Assembly (NCBI RefSeq): GCF_037996765.1
Contig: NZ_JBBNAD010000006.1
Location: 186,001 to 250,000, forward strand
Source of the DNA: Bdellovibrio sp. GT3
Lineage (GTDB): Bacteria > Bdellovibrionota > Bdellovibrionia > Bdellovibrionales > Bdellovibrionaceae
Direction: 5' to 3'
DNA: 64,000 bases
The notes beneath the pieces were generated by a model that worked only from the letters and a program-made list of their open reading frames with translations, had not been told where the DNA came from and ran no database searches. Both the position numbers and the translations under genes were made by a program. This document shows positions 49,903 to 58,741 of the stretch, one piece after another. Position 1 is the stretch's first letter. Each line of letters starts with the position of its first letter.

Positions 49903-49938
49903 ATTCCGCTAATTATTCCGCTAATTATTCCGCTAATT
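49903..49938. repeat. Three 12-bp tandem repeats at the pilR stop
   Basis: ATTCCGCTAATT is repeated three times in a row. On the minus strand this gives GAA-TAA-TTA-GCG repeated, so the stop codon context of pilR is triplicated: each unit holds a TAA in the same frame as the gene. It looks like slippage-type expansion and may vary between strains. Confidence 0.75.
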
Positions 49939-51343
49939 ATTCGTCATCCAGCTCGTCATCACCGACGACGCCCAGATTGTATTTCTCAATGCGATAACGC
50001 ATAGAACGGAAAGAAATATGAAGCAATTTTGCTGCTCTCTTCTTAACGCCACCCGCAGAGTGAATCGCTTTGATCAAAAGTTCTTTTTCAATTTGGCCCA
50101 TGACCTTATCCAAGTCAACACCGTCATCACCCATCTCAATTTCATTGGATGACGCCATTTTGCGGCCAGAAGATGTGTTCACCATTGGCGGCAATGATTC
50201 AGGCAGAATCGTCGCACCACCCTCCAAGGCCACAGTACGCTCGATCATGTTTTCAAGCTCACGCACGTTACCTGGATAGTCATACTTCTTCAGAATTTCC
50301 ATGGCTTCAACACTGATCGCACCGATGTTTTTATTCAGGCGCTCATTGTATTTCTTCAGGAAATGGTTGGCCAAAAGTGGCACGTCCTCACGACGCTCAC
50401 GCAAGCCCGGAGTTCTGATATTGATTACATTCAAACGATAGAACAAATCCTGACGGAAAGTGCCCTTAGCCACCATCTCCTCAAGATTTCTGTTTGTCGC
50501 AGCGATGATACGCACTTCCACTTTCGCGTCTTCTGTGGCACCCACACGACGAATCACGCGTTCTTGAATTGCACGAAGAAGCTTAACCTGAATCGTCAAT
50601 GGCAACTCACCGACCTCATCCAGGAACAGTGTTCCGCCATCAGCAACTTCAAATAGACCGGCCTTATCAACCACTGCACCGGTAAAGGAGCCTTTTTTAT
50701 GACCGAACATTTCTGATTCCATCAGATTTTCAGGAATCGCACCGCAGTTCACGGTAACGAAAGGACGATCTTTCAACGGACCGTTATAATGGATCGCTTT
50801 GGCAACGACCTCTTTACCTGTACCTGATTCCCCCGTGATCAAAACGTTTGTTGGCGTTTGTGATACACGTTTAACCATGTCAAAGATGACGTGCATTGCC
50901 GGGGAGTTCCCCACCATGCTTTGGAATGAGTATTCCTTGGTAAGTTCTTTTTTAAGAGTTCTATTTTCAACTTCCAAATTGCGCGAACGAAGCGCGTTTT
51001 GAATGTTCAAACGAACTTCATCGATCTTAAATGGCTTCGTCAGATAGTCGTAGGCGCCCATTTTCATGGCTTCAACAGCTGTCTCTGTCGTGCCGAATGC
51101 GGTGATCAACATAAACACTGTATCCGGATAGGATTCTTTCACGTGTTTAAGAAGTTCAATCCCCGTCACATGAGGCATCTGCAAATCGGAGATGATCATA
51201 TCGAATGATTTTTTTGTCAGAAGGTCTTTCGCTTTTTGGCCGTCTTCAGCCAAAGTGATCTCATAGCCTTCTTTTTTCAGCATGATCTCTAGAAATTCGC
51301 GTATTGATTCTTCGTCGTCGACAACAAGAATTCTCGGCTTCAT
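49937..51343 (-). CDS. Sigma-54-dependent response regulator, PilR-like
   Basis: The protein has 468 residues from ATG 51343 (upstream GGGAGCGAG). The receiver domain has the phospho-acceptor Asp53 (IISDLQMP). The AAA+ domain has Walker A GESGTGKE (171-178), GSFTGA (218-223, usually GAFTGA, contacts sigma-54), Walker B and the R-finger region. The Fis-type HTH is at about 435-460 (GVKKRAAKLLHISFRSMRYRIEKY). It follows the PilS-like kinase (gap 40 bp), so the pair resembles PilS/PilR that control pilin genes from -24/-12 promoters. The pilin gene is not in the window. Confidence 0.9.
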   Translation of the reverse strand: MKPRILVVDDEESIREFLEIMLKKEGYEITLAEDGQKAKDLLTKKSFDMIISDLQMPHVTGIELLKHVKESYPDTVFMLITAFGTTETAVEAMKMGAYDYLTKPFKIDEVRLNIQNALRSRNLEVENRTLKKELTKEYSFQSMVGNSPAMHVIFDMVKRVSQTPTNVLITGESGTGKEVVAKAIHYNGPLKDRPFVTVNCGAIPENLMESEMFGHKKGSFTGAVVDKAGLFEVADGGTLFLDEVGELPLTIQVKLLRAIQERVIRRVGATEDAKVEVRIIAATNRNLEEMVAKGTFRQDLFYRLNVINIRTPGLRERREDVPLLANHFLKKYNERLNKNIGAISVEAMEILKKYDYPGNVRELENMIERTVALEGGATILPESLPPMVNTSSGRKMASSNEIEMGDDGVDLDKVMGQIEKELLIKAIHSAGGVKKRAAKLLHISFRSMRYRIEKYNLGVVGDDELDDE

Positions 51344-51383
51344 GTATCTCGCTCCCACATCCTGTGAATATAGTCTTTATTCT

Positions 51384-52961
51384 TTAGTTTGCTTTAGGGA
51401 AAGTCAAAACAAACTCTGTCCCCACACCTTGCTCACTCTCAACAAAGATCTGCGCCCCGTGGCCTTCCAGAATTTTATGAGTAATAGCTAGACCAAGGCC
51501 TGTACCTTTGGGTTTCGTCGTGTGAAAAGGTTCAAACATTTTTTTGCGTGTGGCTTCACTCATACCACATCCAGAATCGCGCAAACTGATCACGATGGCT
51601 TTTTCATTTGCCACTGCTTTAACGATCATTTGAGCTTTGCTCGAATCCTGCATCGCCTGATAAGAATTCAAAACGATGTTCAGAAAAACCTGCTTAAGCT
51701 TATCACGATGACCCAGGATTTTTAAGTCCTGACTGATTTCACGGATCTGCTCGATGTCGGCTCTGACCTTCCCGTCCGTTTTGATCGCATCCAGGACTTC
51801 ATTCAACAGAAACGCCATATCCACCGCATCCGTAGGCGGCTTTTCCGGACGGGCATAATCCAAAAACTCAGTGATTAGGTTATTCAGACGATCGATCTCG
51901 CGCAGGACGATTTTCATCAACTTGCGATCATCATCGTTGGTCACGGTCTGAGTCAGCATTTCAATGCTGCCACTGATTCCCGCCAACGGGTTGCGTATTT
52001 CATGTGCAATCCCAGCAGCCAAACCACCCACTGCCGCCAGTTTTTCATTCTGACGAGCAGCAAATTCAAACTGACGAATCTTGGTCAAATCATCAACCAA
52101 AGCAATCGAAAGAGGTGCTTGCAGGTCCGGACTGTACACTTTGGATAAAGTCACACCCAGAATCTTTGCCGTTTGATCGGAGCTTTCAACATACTTCAAA
52201 TCACCTCTGAAACCGTCAGAGGCTTTTTCCGTTTCAGGAAACAGACGGTACCAGTTAAGACCGGTGATTTCAGTTTTACCCAGGATATCCAAAGCGGAAT
52301 TATTCGCAGTCAGCACCTGTCCGTCTGATGTAAAAGAAAGCATTCCCGATGGAATGTTCTCCATGATGAACTGATTTAATTCCTGTGCAGAACGCAGACT
52401 TAAGCCGGTTTGTTTTAATTCTTTACCGACTGACTGCAATTGCTCACTCAGGAAACCCGCAAGTCCCGCCACCGAGAAAAATGCGATATTATTAAGCGCC
52501 AACAGAAAAAAGAAATTCAACGCCTTCATTTCCGGCGAAAACAAAGCCGCCGTTGTGAAGGTGATACTGGTGAATAGAGCCAGAGTTAAGGCACCCACTC
52601 CCCGACATGCAATTCCCGCCAGCAGAATGTTCACCAGATGCAGGAACATCAATAAGGACTGATTCAAACCGAAGTAATAAATCAAAAGCGATATGAAGAC
52701 TGAATCCAGAACAAAACCCAAAAACAGGGCGCGCGGATTCTGCAGCAACTGATCCCACTCAGAAATCCAGATAATGTGCAGACCCAACGCCAATGTCAGC
52801 ACCAGGTAAAAAGGCGCCTGCACGGACCAGTTTACGAAACTTCCCTGAGCCATCGTTGAAACCACACTGATCAACAAGACAATGGCAAAAAGACTGACGC
52901 GAGCAAACTCGACCGTCAGTCCTTGTTTCTTATTACTCTGAAGGGCGTAACTTAAGCGCAA
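51384..52961 (-). CDS. PilS-like sensor histidine kinase with PAS domain
   Basis: The protein has 525 residues. Its start is a TTG (52959-52961) with GGGGGA just before it, immediately after the pilC stop. Membrane helices (about six, residues 20-170) are followed by a PAS-like region (about 200-290). The HisKA H-box AAGIAHEIRNPLAGISG has the His at about residue 321. The HATPase domain has VFLNIVLNSYQAM, SLRDSGCGMSE and GTGLGLAITHKI. The pattern is that of PilS, which senses pilin in the inner membrane. It is adjacent to pilC and pilR, so it controls the pilus. Confidence 0.9.
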   Translation of the reverse strand: MRLSYALQSNKKQGLTVEFARVSLFAIVLLISVVSTMAQGSFVNWSVQAPFYLVLTLALGLHIIWISEWDQLLQNPRALFLGFVLDSVFISLLIYYFGLNQSLLMFLHLVNILLAGIACRGVGALTLALFTSITFTTAALFSPEMKALNFFFLLALNNIAFFSVAGLAGFLSEQLQSVGKELKQTGLSLRSAQELNQFIMENIPSGMLSFTSDGQVLTANNSALDILGKTEITGLNWYRLFPETEKASDGFRGDLKYVESSDQTAKILGVTLSKVYSPDLQAPLSIALVDDLTKIRQFEFAARQNEKLAAVGGLAAGIAHEIRNPLAGISGSIEMLTQTVTNDDDRKLMKIVLREIDRLNNLITEFLDYARPEKPPTDAVDMAFLLNEVLDAIKTDGKVRADIEQIREISQDLKILGHRDKLKQVFLNIVLNSYQAMQDSSKAQMIVKAVANEKAIVISLRDSGCGMSEATRKKMFEPFHTTKPKGTGLGLAITHKILEGHGAQIFVESEQGVGTEFVLTFPKAN

Positions 52962-54188
52962 TTATCCCCCGCCGACAACGTCTGCCATACTGAAGATTGG
53001 CAAGTACATGGCAATAACCAGGATCGCGATGATACCACCCAGGAAAACCATCATCAAAGGTTCCAGCAATGAAGTCATGGCTTTCACGGCAGTTTCAACT
53101 TCGTCCTCATAGAAATCGGCAATCTTACCCAGCATGATATCCATTGTACCGGATTGCTCACCGATGGAGATCATCTGCACCACCATCTCAGGGAAAACTT
53201 TTTCTTTACCCAATGGAGCGGCGAAAGTACGCCCCTCTGTGACTGAGGCTTTACAACGAAGCAAAGCTTGCTCGATGACGATGTTGCCGGCAGTTTTTGC
53301 GGAAATGTCGATCGCTTCAATCAAACCCACACCCGATGACAACAAGGTCGAAAGAGTACGAGTCAAACGGGCAATTGCCGACTTCTGAATCACTTCACCG
53401 AAAACCGGGACATTAAAGAAAAGTCGATCCATGGTATCGCGCCCCTCGTCGGTGCGATAATATTGAAGAATCGCAAACGGAATACCCACCACACCCGCCA
53501 AATACAGATACCACTGATTGATCATGGAATTGGAAAGTGCAATCACGGCCTGAGTCAGTGCAGGTGGTTCTTTACCAGCAGAGTTAAAAAACTCCATAAA
53601 TTTAGGAAGGATGAAAACCAGGATACCGGTGATAACTGCAAATGCCACCACCAGAATGACGGCTGGATAAACCAAAGCGCCCTTCACCTGACTTTTCAAT
53701 TTTTCTGATTTCTCCATATAGAGAGCCAGACGATTCAAGATACCATCCAGGATACCGGCTTCTTCACCGGCCTGGATCATGTTCACATAAAGTTTATCGA
53801 AAACCAGCGGCACTTGCGCCATGGAATCGGCCAAACGACGACCGCTTTCGATCGAAGTCTTAACCTGACCTGCAGCACTTCTTAGAGGCCCCGGACGTAA
53901 ACCTTCAGAAAGAATTTTCAGACAATCCACCACCGGAATACCGGCGTTGATCAATGTTGCAAACTGACGAGTGAAGATCTGCAGATCCTTCCCCTTGACG
54001 CGTCCACCGAACATGGGTTGCGAAGCACCCGGCTTTTTTCCACCAGCTCTTGCCACCACCACAAGTTTTGTTGGCATCAACTGCTGCGCACGCAGACGAA
54101 TGATCGCCTCCTGCTGAGTTGCCGCCTCGATCTCTCCCGAGACGATTCCACCTGTGGCCGCTTTGGCCTGATACTGGAACTTAGCCAT
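52962..54188 (-). CDS. pilC: Type IV pilus platform protein PilC
   Basis: The protein has 408 residues and the two repeated GspF-like halves of the inner-membrane platform. Visible blocks are FTRQFATLINAGIPVVDCLKIL, GILDGILNRLALYMEKSEKLKSQVKGALVYPAVILV, LSTLLSSGVGLIEAIDISAKTAGN and SLLEPLMMVFLGGIIAILVIAMYLPIF at the end. Three membrane segments are expected. It takes torque from the ATPases PilB and PilT. It abuts both neighbours with no spacer. Confidence 0.95.
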   Translation of the reverse strand: MAKFQYQAKAATGGIVSGEIEAATQQEAIIRLRAQQLMPTKLVVVARAGGKKPGASQPMFGGRVKGKDLQIFTRQFATLINAGIPVVDCLKILSEGLRPGPLRSAAGQVKTSIESGRRLADSMAQVPLVFDKLYVNMIQAGEEAGILDGILNRLALYMEKSEKLKSQVKGALVYPAVILVVAFAVITGILVFILPKFMEFFNSAGKEPPALTQAVIALSNSMINQWYLYLAGVVGIPFAILQYYRTDEGRDTMDRLFFNVPVFGEVIQKSAIARLTRTLSTLLSSGVGLIEAIDISAKTAGNIVIEQALLRCKASVTEGRTFAAPLGKEKVFPEMVVQMISIGEQSGTMDIMLGKIADFYEDEVETAVKAMTSLLEPLMMVFLGGIIAILVIAMYLPIFSMADVVGGG

Positions 54189-55232
54189 CTAGATGCCCAC
54201 CTTTTTGAGCAACTGATCCAAATGATCCGGATCGCGGGATGTTTCAAAGGCTGTTTTCAAATCCACACGACGGCGAATCAAATGCTGCAACAGGGATTGA
54301 TTCAAAGTCAAAATTCCTGAGTGCTCTGGTGCTGTTGTCAAAACAGACTGTAGCGCTGTCATTTCCTGACGCTCGATAAAGTCACGAATCTGTGGTTTTA
54401 CCAATAGCAGCTCGTGAGCAAATACGCGATCATTGCCAAGTCCTGGCATCGCATACTGCCCCAACCCCATGGAAAACACCTCTGCAAAACGAGATGATCC
54501 ATGCTGACCGAAACGATCCGTCATCACCGACAAACAGCGACGAAGCGCATTCATCAAAGACGGTGCACGCATGGAATAGATCACAAAAACGCCACGTTCC
54601 GCCAAGGCCATCGCCTCAAGGAAGCTGCCATCATCAGAAGCTCCGTCGTAAACCACGACATCCACTCCGTTCAACAGACTGTCACGCTCGTCTTTGCTGG
54701 CAAAAATGCCGTTATGATATAGAAAACAGGATTTTTCCTCGCGCATTTGCGGGAATGGTCTGGTGGAGAAAACCACACCCATGAATGATTTTTCCTCACC
54801 CATTTTTTGCATGGTTTTATACAGCGTCCCCGTCTGCCCGGATTCACCGGCACCAGAGACAATCACCAGTCCCTTCATGCGCAGGCAGGTTTCCAGATAG
54901 CTTCCCGGTAGCGGCATATCGAATCTTGAACCGTCCAGATCCAGATCGATGATCGCCTTCATGGTACTTTCATGCTGAAAGAACGAAAACCCAATGCGCA
55001 TATTCTCAAGCGCGGTTTCACCAACCACAGCACCTGTTGTTTCCAGAACCGTTTTTTGATTGTCATCCAAAAAGCTCTGCTGAAGAAGCTTCCACTCCGT
55101 CATCAATCCCGGAGACTTTCTTAAACTTTCCCAACCCGTGGTGCTGCGTGCACGAGGCTCGCTACCAACGACAAACAGGAATTCCTGGGATTTCTTTGCT
55201 TTTGCTTGCATTAACAATTCAGTCAAACTCAT
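54189..55232 (-). CDS. PilT-like pseudo-ATPase (degenerate motor protein)
   Basis: The protein has 347 residues, the usual PilT length, and sits where pilT is expected (pilB - this - pilC). The fold resembles PilT but the motor motifs are lost. The Walker A site reads GAGESGQT (residues 127-134): the catalytic Lys is Gln133 and Glu130 replaces Gly. The Walker B/Glu site VVVYDGASDD (192-201) lacks the catalytic Glu of the usual VGEMRD. The His-box TLHT reads SMRAPS. The protein should therefore not hydrolyse ATP. It may be a regulator or structural subunit of the retraction machine. The start overlaps the pilB stop by one base. A standard PilT must be encoded elsewhere if retraction occurs. 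Confidence 0.82.
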   Translation of the reverse strand: MSLTELLMQAKAKKSQEFLFVVGSEPRARSTTGWESLRKSPGLMTEWKLLQQSFLDDNQKTVLETTGAVVGETALENMRIGFSFFQHESTMKAIIDLDLDGSRFDMPLPGSYLETCLRMKGLVIVSGAGESGQTGTLYKTMQKMGEEKSFMGVVFSTRPFPQMREEKSCFLYHNGIFASKDERDSLLNGVDVVVYDGASDDGSFLEAMALAERGVFVIYSMRAPSLMNALRRCLSVMTDRFGQHGSSRFAEVFSMGLGQYAMPGLGNDRVFAHELLLVKPQIRDFIERQEMTALQSVLTTAPEHSGILTLNQSLLQHLIRRRVDLKTAFETSRDPDHLDQLLKKVGI

Positions 55233-56932
55233 TATGTGTCCTTCACAGATGCATTCAAGACTTCTTCAATTGTTGTTTGGCCTCGTTTAAGTTTCAACAA
55301 TGCAGAACGGCGAAGCGTTTTCATTCCTTGCTCACGCGCCAGGAAACGCAACTGCCCCGTCGAGGCCCCTTTAAGAATGGCCTCTTTCATTTTTTCCGTC
55401 ATGGACAGCAACTCGTACACTGCCAAACGACCTTTGATGCCGGAGTTGTTACAGTTTGAACAACCTTTTCCGCGCATCAGCTTATAATCACCGACTTCCG
55501 CCTGCGGCACACCCAGATTAATCAGGGTTTGAGCCGGAACTTCAATCGGCGCTTTACATGATTCACAGTTTTTACCAACCAGACGCTGAGCCACCACCAG
55601 ATTCACACAGGAAGTGATGATATAGTTCGCCACACCCATTTCGGTCAGACGAACAACAGTACCAGGAGCATCATTGGTATGCAGAGTACTTACAACCAAG
55701 TGACCCGTGGAGGCCGCTTTAAAGGCAATCTCTGCAGTTTCAAGGTCACGAATCTCCCCCACCATGACGATATCCGGGTCCTGACGAAGGAAGGATTTAA
55801 GCGCGCTGGAGAAATTCAAGTCGATATCAGGATTCATCTGAACCTGATTGATACCTTCAAGATTGAACTCGACCGGATCTTCTGCCGTGGAGATATTCAC
55901 GTCCGGTTTGTTCAATTCCGCCAAGGCAGAATAAATTGTCGTGGTTTTACCAGAACCCGTAGGCCCCGTGATCAACACCATCCCCTGCGGAAGATTGATC
56001 ATGGATTTGAAAAGTTTCAAATCGTCTTCTTCGAAACCAAGCTTGGTCATGTCCAATTGAAGATTGGATTTATCAAGCAAACGCATAACGACTTTTTCGC
56101 CCCAAATCGTTGGCAGAATGCTGACACGGAAGTCCATCTCGCGGCCTTTTTTGGTACGAACTTTCAGACGACCATCCTGCGGACGGCGCTTTTCAGCGAT
56201 ATCAAGCTTGGACATGATCTTGATACGCGAGGCAATGGCGGCACCCGTTCCTTGTGGGGGTTGCGTGGCTTCAACCAGATTACCGTCAATACGAAAACGT
56301 ACACGGAATCTTTTTTCATAAGGTTCAAAATGAATATCCGAAACCTTCTTGATGATCGCATCGCCCAAAATCTGATTCACGAATTTTACAATGGGAGCTT
56401 CCTCGCCGCCAGAGTCGGAATCGATGATTTCAGCGGTGGTAGAGGCTGCATACTCCTCCTCCATACTTTCTGCGATGGTATTAAGATTCTTAACGTTGAT
56501 GTTACCGCCGTAGTATCTTTCGATACTGGCAGCAATCGCCGTTTCAGTCGCAACCACGGCCTGGATTTTACAGCGCGTGATAAAGCGCAAGTCTTCCTTA
56601 ACCATGATATTGCTGGGATCTGCAAAAGCCACGACCAGCGTGGATCCGGCTTTTTGCAATGGAATCAATTGATTACGATCACAAACATCTCGGGGAATCA
56701 GCTGTAAAACTGTCGCATCAATTTCAAAAGAGGAAACTTCCACGCCGGGCACTGCAAAGTGCTTTTCCATCGCGCGAAGGATTTGATTTTCCTTAAGAAA
56801 ACCAAGCTGTGTGATAACTCCCGTCAGTCTAGCTGTCCCGGATTTCTTTTGTTCTTCAACAGCGTGCGCAAGCTGATCCGGTTTGAGCAGACCCTGCTTA
56901 ACTAATATTTCACCAATCTTGAAAGAAGACAT
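55232..56932 (-). CDS. pilB: Type IV pilus extension ATPase PilB
   Basis: A 566-residue protein, the usual PilB length. It has an N1 domain (about 1-150, GEILVKQGLLKPDQLAHAVEEQ), an N2 domain, the Walker A site GPTGSGKTTT (about 326), Asp box and Walker B VMVGEIRDLETAEIAF, the His-box VSTLHTNDAPGT and a tetracysteine zinc motif (CESCKAP and CSNCNNSG, about 455-500). All catalytic residues are intact. PilB powers pilin extension on the PilC platform. The ATG has GGGGAG upstream. Gene order here is pilB, PilT-like, pilC, pilS, pilR. Confidence 0.97.
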   Translation of the reverse strand: MSSFKIGEILVKQGLLKPDQLAHAVEEQKKSGTARLTGVITQLGFLKENQILRAMEKHFAVPGVEVSSFEIDATVLQLIPRDVCDRNQLIPLQKAGSTLVVAFADPSNIMVKEDLRFITRCKIQAVVATETAIAASIERYYGGNINVKNLNTIAESMEEEYAASTTAEIIDSDSGGEEAPIVKFVNQILGDAIIKKVSDIHFEPYEKRFRVRFRIDGNLVEATQPPQGTGAAIASRIKIMSKLDIAEKRRPQDGRLKVRTKKGREMDFRVSILPTIWGEKVVMRLLDKSNLQLDMTKLGFEEDDLKLFKSMINLPQGMVLITGPTGSGKTTTIYSALAELNKPDVNISTAEDPVEFNLEGINQVQMNPDIDLNFSSALKSFLRQDPDIVMVGEIRDLETAEIAFKAASTGHLVVSTLHTNDAPGTVVRLTEMGVANYIITSCVNLVVAQRLVGKNCESCKAPIEVPAQTLINLGVPQAEVGDYKLMRGKGCSNCNNSGIKGRLAVYELLSMTEKMKEAILKGASTGQLRFLAREQGMKTLRRSALLKLKRGQTTIEEVLNASVKDT

Positions 56933-56979: not shown

Positions 56980-57813
56980 CTAGACGGAAGAAGAGTTTTC
57001 GTTCTTGAACTCTTCGATCCAATTCGCAAGGTCAGAGGGCTTCAGCAGATGAGATTGCTTGAGTTTCTCGAAAACTGTCTCGACCAAAGCCTGCAACATA
57101 TCTTTGGGGAACAGAGCCTTCAACTCCGCCTGCTTTGCCTCGTCCATCAACTCACTTTGCAGATTGCCAAGGTGCAAATCAAACGCATACCCGCCAGTTG
57201 TCATGAAATTGAAATATGACAAATCGGTCAGGAGCTCACTCTCCGAGTCCAGTTGAACTGTGTTGATGATCAATGAAGCGTTGATCGGCTGAATGGTCAA
57301 TTCCTCCATCGGCAGAACCTTGAACTTGATCCCCAGATTTCCCCGGGACAGAATGCGGGCTTCGCGATACAGCTGGGTGATGTTCTCCCCCATCAAATAG
57401 ATTTCAGCGAATCCCAATTCTGTGCAAACCGCCGCGGCGATTCGCAGACACTCACCCTCACCAACGACAAAAGCTGGCATGCGAATATCCACATCACGGG
57501 CCTGCTCCACCAAAACTTTATGAAGTGCCTCATAACTTAGAAGCCGAGGATACCACTTCGCACCTTCCGGCAGATACATATCAAAGCATTCCAGCAAACG
57601 AACCTGCGTTGGCAAAACCTGCAGCGAAGGATAAAGAGCGCGAGATTGCTCGAAAGAAAAAAATGCGGCATCCGCGCCCGCCAAAAGCTCCTCGGAAAAC
57701 GTGGGGTGCTGCTCTGGAACAGGAAAATCCGGATTTTTTTTCGCAATAAACTGCAAAAATCGAAACAATGTACTGGATTCGCCCTCACGGAACTCAAGAA
57801 TTTTTTTGTTCAT
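56980..57813 (-). CDS. Hypothetical protein, distant shikimate-dehydrogenase-like
   Basis: The protein has 277 residues from ATG 57813 (a TTG at 57816 is possible). It overlaps the ribF end by 20 bp. The central part AFVVGEGECLRIAAAVCTELGFAEIYLMGEN (about 116-146) resembles the second (NAD-binding) domain of AroE-like proteins, but GxGxxG reads GEGECL. The rest has few conserved catalytic residues, so an enzymatic role is doubtful. It lies between ribF and pilB on the same strand. I do not recognise a closer family. Confidence 0.6.
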   Translation of the reverse strand: MNKKILEFREGESSTLFRFLQFIAKKNPDFPVPEQHPTFSEELLAGADAAFFSFEQSRALYPSLQVLPTQVRLLECFDMYLPEGAKWYPRLLSYEALHKVLVEQARDVDIRMPAFVVGEGECLRIAAAVCTELGFAEIYLMGENITQLYREARILSRGNLGIKFKVLPMEELTIQPINASLIINTVQLDSESELLTDLSYFNFMTTGGYAFDLHLGNLQSELMDEAKQAELKALFPKDMLQALVETVFEKLKQSHLLKPSDLANWIEEFKNENSSSV

Positions 57814-58741
57814 CAAAATACTTTCGGGCGGCTGCCATATCGGAAAAAATCTGCTGCTTCAAAGAATCAATCCCGGAAAACTTCATTTCATCCCTTAAAA
57901 AATACAACAACTCCACTTCGACTTCCACGCCGTAAAGCTGCGCATCCATATCGAAAATATGACTTTCAATTTTTACCGGACCCGCTTTGCCGTCTTCCTG
58001 GAAAGTGGGATTCACACCGATATTTGTGATGGAAGGATGATTGTGCCCGTTGATTCTGGTGTAAGTGAAATACACACCTTTGCGAGGCACAAACTCCACA
58101 TCCGGATGAATATTGGCAGTGGGCACCCCGATGGTGCGACCGCGCTGAAAGCCTTTTTCCACGTTGCCACGCAGGTAATAACGACGCCCCAAAAGTTGCG
58201 CCGCTTTGTCCACCTCACCCGCCTGCAAAGCCTCACGAATGCGCGTCGATGAAACCACCTGGCCATTCAACTGAAAGGGGGGAATCACAATCAAACGTAT
58301 CCCCTGTTGCGCACAAAATCCCTCAAGGAAAGAGATGTTTCCGGTGCGATTGGCGCCGAAATTAAAATCGTGCCCGACGACCAGAGTCTTGGGATTCAGA
58401 TTTTTCATTACATAGTTTTGCAGGAAATCCTGAGCGGAAACCTGCGCAAACTCACGAGTGAAATTTTCGATGATCACACACTCGATACCACCAGCGGCAA
58501 AGCGCTCCTGCTGGTCGCGAAGATCGAACATTCTCTGGGTTTGGCGCTCTGGAAAAAGCACTTTTACAGGGTGAGGATGGAAAGTATACACAACCCCAGG
58601 AACACCATAGTGCTGGGCTTCGCGAGTAACAGTTTCAATCAGTTGCTGATGCCCCAGATGAACACCGTCAAAATTGCCAATTGTGACGACAGAGGACTCT
58701 ATAACAGACCCCATCTGCCCTACGCCTTGATAGATATGCAT
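57794..58741 (-). CDS. ribF: Bifunctional riboflavin kinase / FAD synthetase
   Basis: The protein has 315 residues from ATG 58741 (TTG 58750 also possible). The FAD-synthetase half opens VVTIGNFDGVHLGHQQLIE (GNFDGVHxGH is the nucleotidyltransferase motif). It has VVGHDFNFGANRTG and SSTRIREALQAGEVDKAAQLLGR (SSTxIR region). The flavokinase half begins at about 185 with GNVEKGFQRGRTIGVPTANI and has FTYTRINGHNHPSITNIGVNPTF and EVEVELLYFLRDEMKF. It makes FMN and FAD. It leads the minus-strand block that continues into pilB. Confidence 0.96.
   Translation of the reverse strand: MHIYQGVGQMGSVIESSVVTIGNFDGVHLGHQQLIETVTREAQHYGVPGVVYTFHPHPVKVLFPERQTQRMFDLRDQQERFAAGGIECVIIENFTREFAQVSAQDFLQNYVMKNLNPKTLVVGHDFNFGANRTGNISFLEGFCAQQGIRLIVIPPFQLNGQVVSSTRIREALQAGEVDKAAQLLGRRYYLRGNVEKGFQRGRTIGVPTANIHPDVEFVPRKGVYFTYTRINGHNHPSITNIGVNPTFQEDGKAGPVKIESHIFDMDAQLYGVEVEVELLYFLRDEMKFSGIDSLKQQIFSDMAAARKYFDEQKNS

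Follow-up and report, generated by a model that had tools for sequence, protein, structure and literature searches.

The window, a stretch of 64,000 nucleotides, carries a block of pil genes on its minus strand, in which the open reading frame of interest, pilT1, begins with ATG and sits between pilB and pilC, as pilT does in operons of the pilB-pilT-pilC type. The genes, together with the segments of PilT1 considered below, are as follows.

49937–51358, minus strand: pilR-like sigma-54 response regulator
51384–52961, minus strand: pilS-like sensor kinase (6TM_PilS, HisKA, HATPase)
52962–54188, minus strand: pilC, platform protein (T2SSF)
54189–55232, minus strand: pilT1, pseudo-ATPase PilT, 347 aa (TIGR01420, PDB, profile comparison, motif alignment)
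54192–54317, minus strand: conserved C-terminal region of PilT1, residues 306–347 (GILTLNQSLLQHLIRRRVDLKTAFETSRDPDHLDQLLKKVGI)
54567–54590, minus strand: His-box position, residues 215–222, VFVIYSMR, both His gone
54633–54659, minus strand: Walker B position, residues 192–200, VVVYDGASD, catalytic Glu replaced by Gly197
54753–54767, minus strand: Asp-box position, residues 156–160, STRPF for EDPIE (alignment)
54828–54854, minus strand: Walker A position, residues 127–135, GAGESGQTG, Lys replaced by Gln133
55232–56932, minus strand: pilB, extension ATPase with intact motifs (T2SSE)

Comparison with the PilT/PilU family model TIGR01420 revealed homology over the full length of PilT1 (residues 3–336 on model positions 2–342, E 5.8e-18), at a score of 65 bits that lies under the curated cut-off of 319 bits. 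A Pfam search gave only a sub-threshold T2SSE match; a PDB search matched Aquifex PilT (2gsz, E 2.8e-18), and profile comparison with intact operonic PilTs reached 99.9% probability over 341 aligned columns. The neighbouring PilB was intact (T2SSE E 1.5e-139), with GPTGSGKTT, VGEIRD and STLHT in its sequence. These results agree with the initial annotation, which had read the frame as a gene of the right length in the place of pilT, next to an intact pilB.

The same annotation had reported that Gln133 stands for the Walker A Lys, that the Walker B Glu is absent and that the His box is gone, and alignment to PilT confirmed each loss. The canonical Walker A GPTGSGKST aligned to GAGESGQTG, which leaves no GxxxxGK[ST]; the canonical Walker B VIFVGEMRD aligned to VVVYDGASD, and the canonical His box HLVFGTLH to VFVIYSMR. 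PilT1 therefore lacks the Walker B Glu, Asp box and His box that mark PilT retraction ATPases, as well as the working ATPase motifs of PilU. Two N-domain arginines that are near-invariant in intact operonic PilTs were also replaced (Gly81, Asp96), and in a sample of eight PilT1 sequences the replacement residues G127, G129, E130, G132 and Q133 were fixed. The divergent pocket may still bind nucleotide. An AlphaFold2 monomer model built from eight congeneric sequences was too poor for use (pLDDT 49).

At the other end of the gene, the pilT1 stop codon abuts the pilC start (TAG directly followed by ATG; window 54186–54205). The arrangement suggests translational coupling from pilT1 to pilC, and the last pilT1 codons, which read AAG GTR GG just 5' of the stop in Bdellovibrio, probably double as the pilC ribosome-binding site.

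Directly upstream of pilB lies a very degenerate AroE-like (shikimate dehydrogenase) gene (56980–57816, minus strand; NCBIfam E 0.016), so that the pil region has a second enzyme-derived gene seemingly stripped of its enzyme identity. In other families of the order, the corresponding gene ahead of pilB matched AroE models with E between 1e-9 and 1e-13 and scored far under the curated cut-offs. A whole-genome search with aroE models gave one match only, likewise below cut-off, in a 621-aa frame away from the pil region (G000:C5:214760-215125, L215).

Analysis of the genus revealed pilT1 with the same lesions, in the same place, in 24 of 24 sampled Bdellovibrio species, with the pilB-pilT1-pilC order retained; lesions shared by 24 species cannot be a sequencing error or a recent mutation. 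In a codon model of the 24 species, omega was 0.060 for pilT1, 0.048 for pilB, 0.046 for pilC and 0.027 for pilT2; it was 0.037 for pilT1 in the closest clade of five species, and three segments of pilT1 were all constrained (0.049, 0.051 and 0.072). High dS between many pairs makes the exact values rough, and the contrast of pilT1 with its neighbours in the operon is more robust than any single value. The dN/dS comparison, which had been proposed as a check on the gene, thus placed pilT1 (0.04–0.06) at a level comparable to pilB and pilC and rejected random decay. The reading as a conserved pseudo-ATPase and not a product of general decay is upheld, since the catalytic motifs were lost in all congeners under strong purifying selection. 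A contig search with the single PilT1 sequence gave no matches, and a search with an alignment gave seven Bdellovibrio loci.

We extended the survey to 66 genomes from 20 genera of the Bdellovibrionaceae, five of them incomplete at the pilT1 locus (G061, G065, G067, G074 and G084). Wherever the operon was assembled, every PilT1 found was without hydrolysis motifs; the exception was genus g5, in two genomes of which (G027 and G064) pilT1 was absent and pilB led straight to pilC. The gene is therefore dispensable in g5, where the joined pilB and pilC lie at L091 3366–6304 and L156 1495–4421. The P-loop GxxxxGK[ST] persisted in many family genera other than Bdellovibrio, which indicates that the hydrolysis residues were lost before the P-loop. 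In genera g2, g6 and g10, PilT1 was short (about 208–257 aa) and had no N-terminal domain. Across the family genera, mean pairwise identity was 46% in the C-terminal ~50 residues and 22–23% in the N-domain and core, and the ribosome-binding site of pilC cannot account for ~50 conserved residues. Intact copies in close relatives, which would have pointed to a local mutation, were sought and none occurred within the family; they were confined to other families and classes.

Since pilB-pilT-pilC with an intact PilT is the prevailing arrangement in the order outside this family, and in other classes of the phylum, the ancestral state is an intact operonic PilT. For one such outgroup copy the best PDB match was 6ojx. 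Wherever an outgroup genome had an intact PilT in the operon, PilT1 matched that copy best, by a wide margin over the other PilTs, which leaves replacement of the operonic gene by another paralogue unsupported. Outside the Bdellovibrionaceae, degenerate operonic PilTs were found in G040 (family f5, partly) and in G039, G094, G110 and G117 (family f4). On the PilB tree the minimum number of degeneration changes was three, and on this phylogeny at least two lineages besides the Bdellovibrionaceae are placed as independent degenerations.

An intact PilT2 is present in the genome that carries the window, and nearly every family genome that we searched for canonical PilTs had exactly one intact copy beside PilT1. 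In each degenerate lineage the PilT2 orthologue was the one canonical PilT present, and a third paralogue was not detected at the thresholds applied. Because several genomes without a third paralogue retain an intact operonic PilT, lack of that paralogue is insufficient for decay; decay and absence of the third paralogue went in the same direction (p 0.25, three independent changes only), and the association is a pattern and not a test. The small-genome members of family f4 (L178–L186) showed the reverse of the Bdellovibrio arrangement: they had an intact operonic PilT and no PilT2 orthologue, most of them with a third paralogue. Identification of the third paralogue as PilU was unsupported; its best PDB match was a PilT, and PilU (9n32) scored lower.

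The central observation is not new, because Chanyi & Koval (2014; PMC4237445) reported that PilT1 of B. bacteriovorus (Bd1510), which shares an operon with pilB, pilC, pilS and pilR, is without a Walker A box and may take no part in retraction; on this point the initial annotation had been anticipated. Bd1510 is the orthologue of the window PilT1 and occupies the same position in the operon; three of the four pilT1 primers of that study match one genome of our set (G006) without mismatch, and the PilT1 encoded there is 67% identical to that of the window. Chanyi & Koval reported a Walker B box in Bd1510, whereas no family sequence analysed here has the catalytic Glu. What appears to be new is the depth to which the dead PilT1 is conserved across genus and family; in the literature that we found there was no description of the family-wide depth, the selection, the order of losses or the independent repeats, and a literature search yielded no report of a pseudo-ATPase or pseudoenzyme in type IV pili.

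As regards the role in predator-prey contact put forward in the initial annotation, the published pilT1 mutants still prey; deletion of pilT1 gave slightly faster predation and changes in piliation (PMC4237445). The deletion does not resemble that of pilT2, and it brings back part of the biofilm predation that a pilT2 mutant has lost. The phenotypes are small, the strain was host-independent, and the piliation results disagree between methods: by electron microscopy 8.2% of pilT1 mutant cells were piliated against 22.3% in the wild type, but by immunofluorescence 33.4% against 27.0% (PMC4237445). The genes bd1509–1512 are transcribed, in host-independent strains at a level below that of the attack phase. 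Neither PilT1 nor PilT2 restored twitching in a P. aeruginosa pilT mutant.

Taken together, PilT1 is very probably a conserved non-catalytic PilT. With somewhat more belief than doubt, we regard it as a vertical descendant of the operon's working retraction motor that survives as a non-catalytic subunit and modulates pilus dynamics, most likely as a brake. The residues for ATP hydrolysis would have been lost before the Bdellovibrionaceae radiated, and PilT1 would no longer hydrolyse ATP; it could still dock on the pilus base, at PilC and/or PilB, through the retained C-terminal region. Occupying the base, it would stabilise the extended pilus or oppose its release, and a separate canonical PilT2 would do the pulling. 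Of the roles first proposed for the protein, braking fits the mutant phenotypes best; it is nevertheless a best guess, because the two methods disagree on piliation and the strain is host-independent, and taken alone we consider it plausible with the balance slightly against it.

That PilT1 instead serves as a docking adaptor, sitting dead on PilC so that PilT2 can drive retraction, has a direct precedent in V. cholerae, where PilU retracts pili with the ATPase-dead PilT K136A and not without PilT (Chlebek 2019, PMC6821130; Adams 2019), and the single intact canonical PilT beside PilT1 in nearly all family genomes searched would suit it. However, the pilT1 deletion does not copy the pilT2 deletion, and predation on biofilm is better when both genes are deleted than when pilT2 alone is, which argues against an obligate adaptor and fits an element opposing retraction or release; one genus, moreover, has PilT2 without PilT1, and some PilT1s lack the N-terminal domain. 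We therefore hold the adaptor to be unlikely. The missing domain also bears on the suggestion that PilT1 mixes with a real PilT in hexamers: in PilT and PilU rings the N-terminal domain packs on the neighbouring subunit (PMC13142100), and mixed hexamers are not supported as a general mechanism because three family genera are without it. Help with extension or with initiation of pilus assembly, as PilT gives to the MSHA pilus, would agree with the electron-microscopy counts of the pilT1 deletion, and PilT does promote MSHA extension and contacts the platform protein and extension motors; but the immunofluorescence counts run the other way, the MSHA role requires an ATPase-active retraction motor, and predation was not lowered in the deletion, so that we see little chance of it.

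A signalling role of the kind that Chanyi & Koval proposed, in which PilT1 reports the state of the pilus or keeps secreted hydrolases repressed, would account for the partial relief of the pilT2 defect without any mechanical action. It seems highly improbable, since domain searches of PilT1 found no signalling domain and the conserved part of the protein is PilT-like. Least probable of these readings is that pilT1 is a disappearing relic, preserved chiefly because of where it sits in the operon, for instance through translational coupling to pilC: the junction with pilC, the truncated forms in three genera and the complete loss in one are what such a relic would show, but 347 conserved residues are not needed for coupling, genus g5 simply links pilB to pilC, and the low omega across the whole protein, near that of pilB and pilC, disfavours a relic for Bdellovibrio itself.

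The modulator reading can be widened to the order. There the retraction motor of the operon could have turned, at least three times independently, into a non-catalytic protein devoted to regulating the pilus base. Each time PilT2 would have been left as the sole canonical PilT, the C-terminal region would be the working part that was kept, and the forms with a P-loop but without the hydrolysis residues would be natural intermediates. This extension is tentative, and we hold it with clear doubt. Pilus motors are usually viewed as ATPases that push or pull. If the reading is true, a natural and long-conserved dead PilT, encoded in a predator's main pilus operon, would show that a motor subunit can be retained purely for docking or control, and the intact, P-loop-only, fully dead, N-domain-less and absent forms offer a natural series for roles of PilT beyond ATP hydrolysis.

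PilT1 matches the canonical operonic PilT of the outgroups in position, length and the overall course of its sequence, and both have the conserved NQSL and the C-terminal region, whereas PilT1 alone is without the Walker A Lys, Asp box, Walker B Glu and His box. Because in V. cholerae the ATPase-dead PilT lets PilU retract pili, and both PilT and PilU touch the platform protein, a PilT can matter without hydrolysis, and PilT K136A resembles PilT1 as a PilT without ATPase activity that is still of use to the machine. K136A, however, is a laboratory point mutant, while PilT1 is natural, ancient and altered throughout, and deletion of PilT1 leaves PilT2-dependent predation unblocked. PilU is, like PilT1, a second PilT-family protein alongside a canonical PilT, but PilU is a working ATPase and PilT1, by its sequence, is not.
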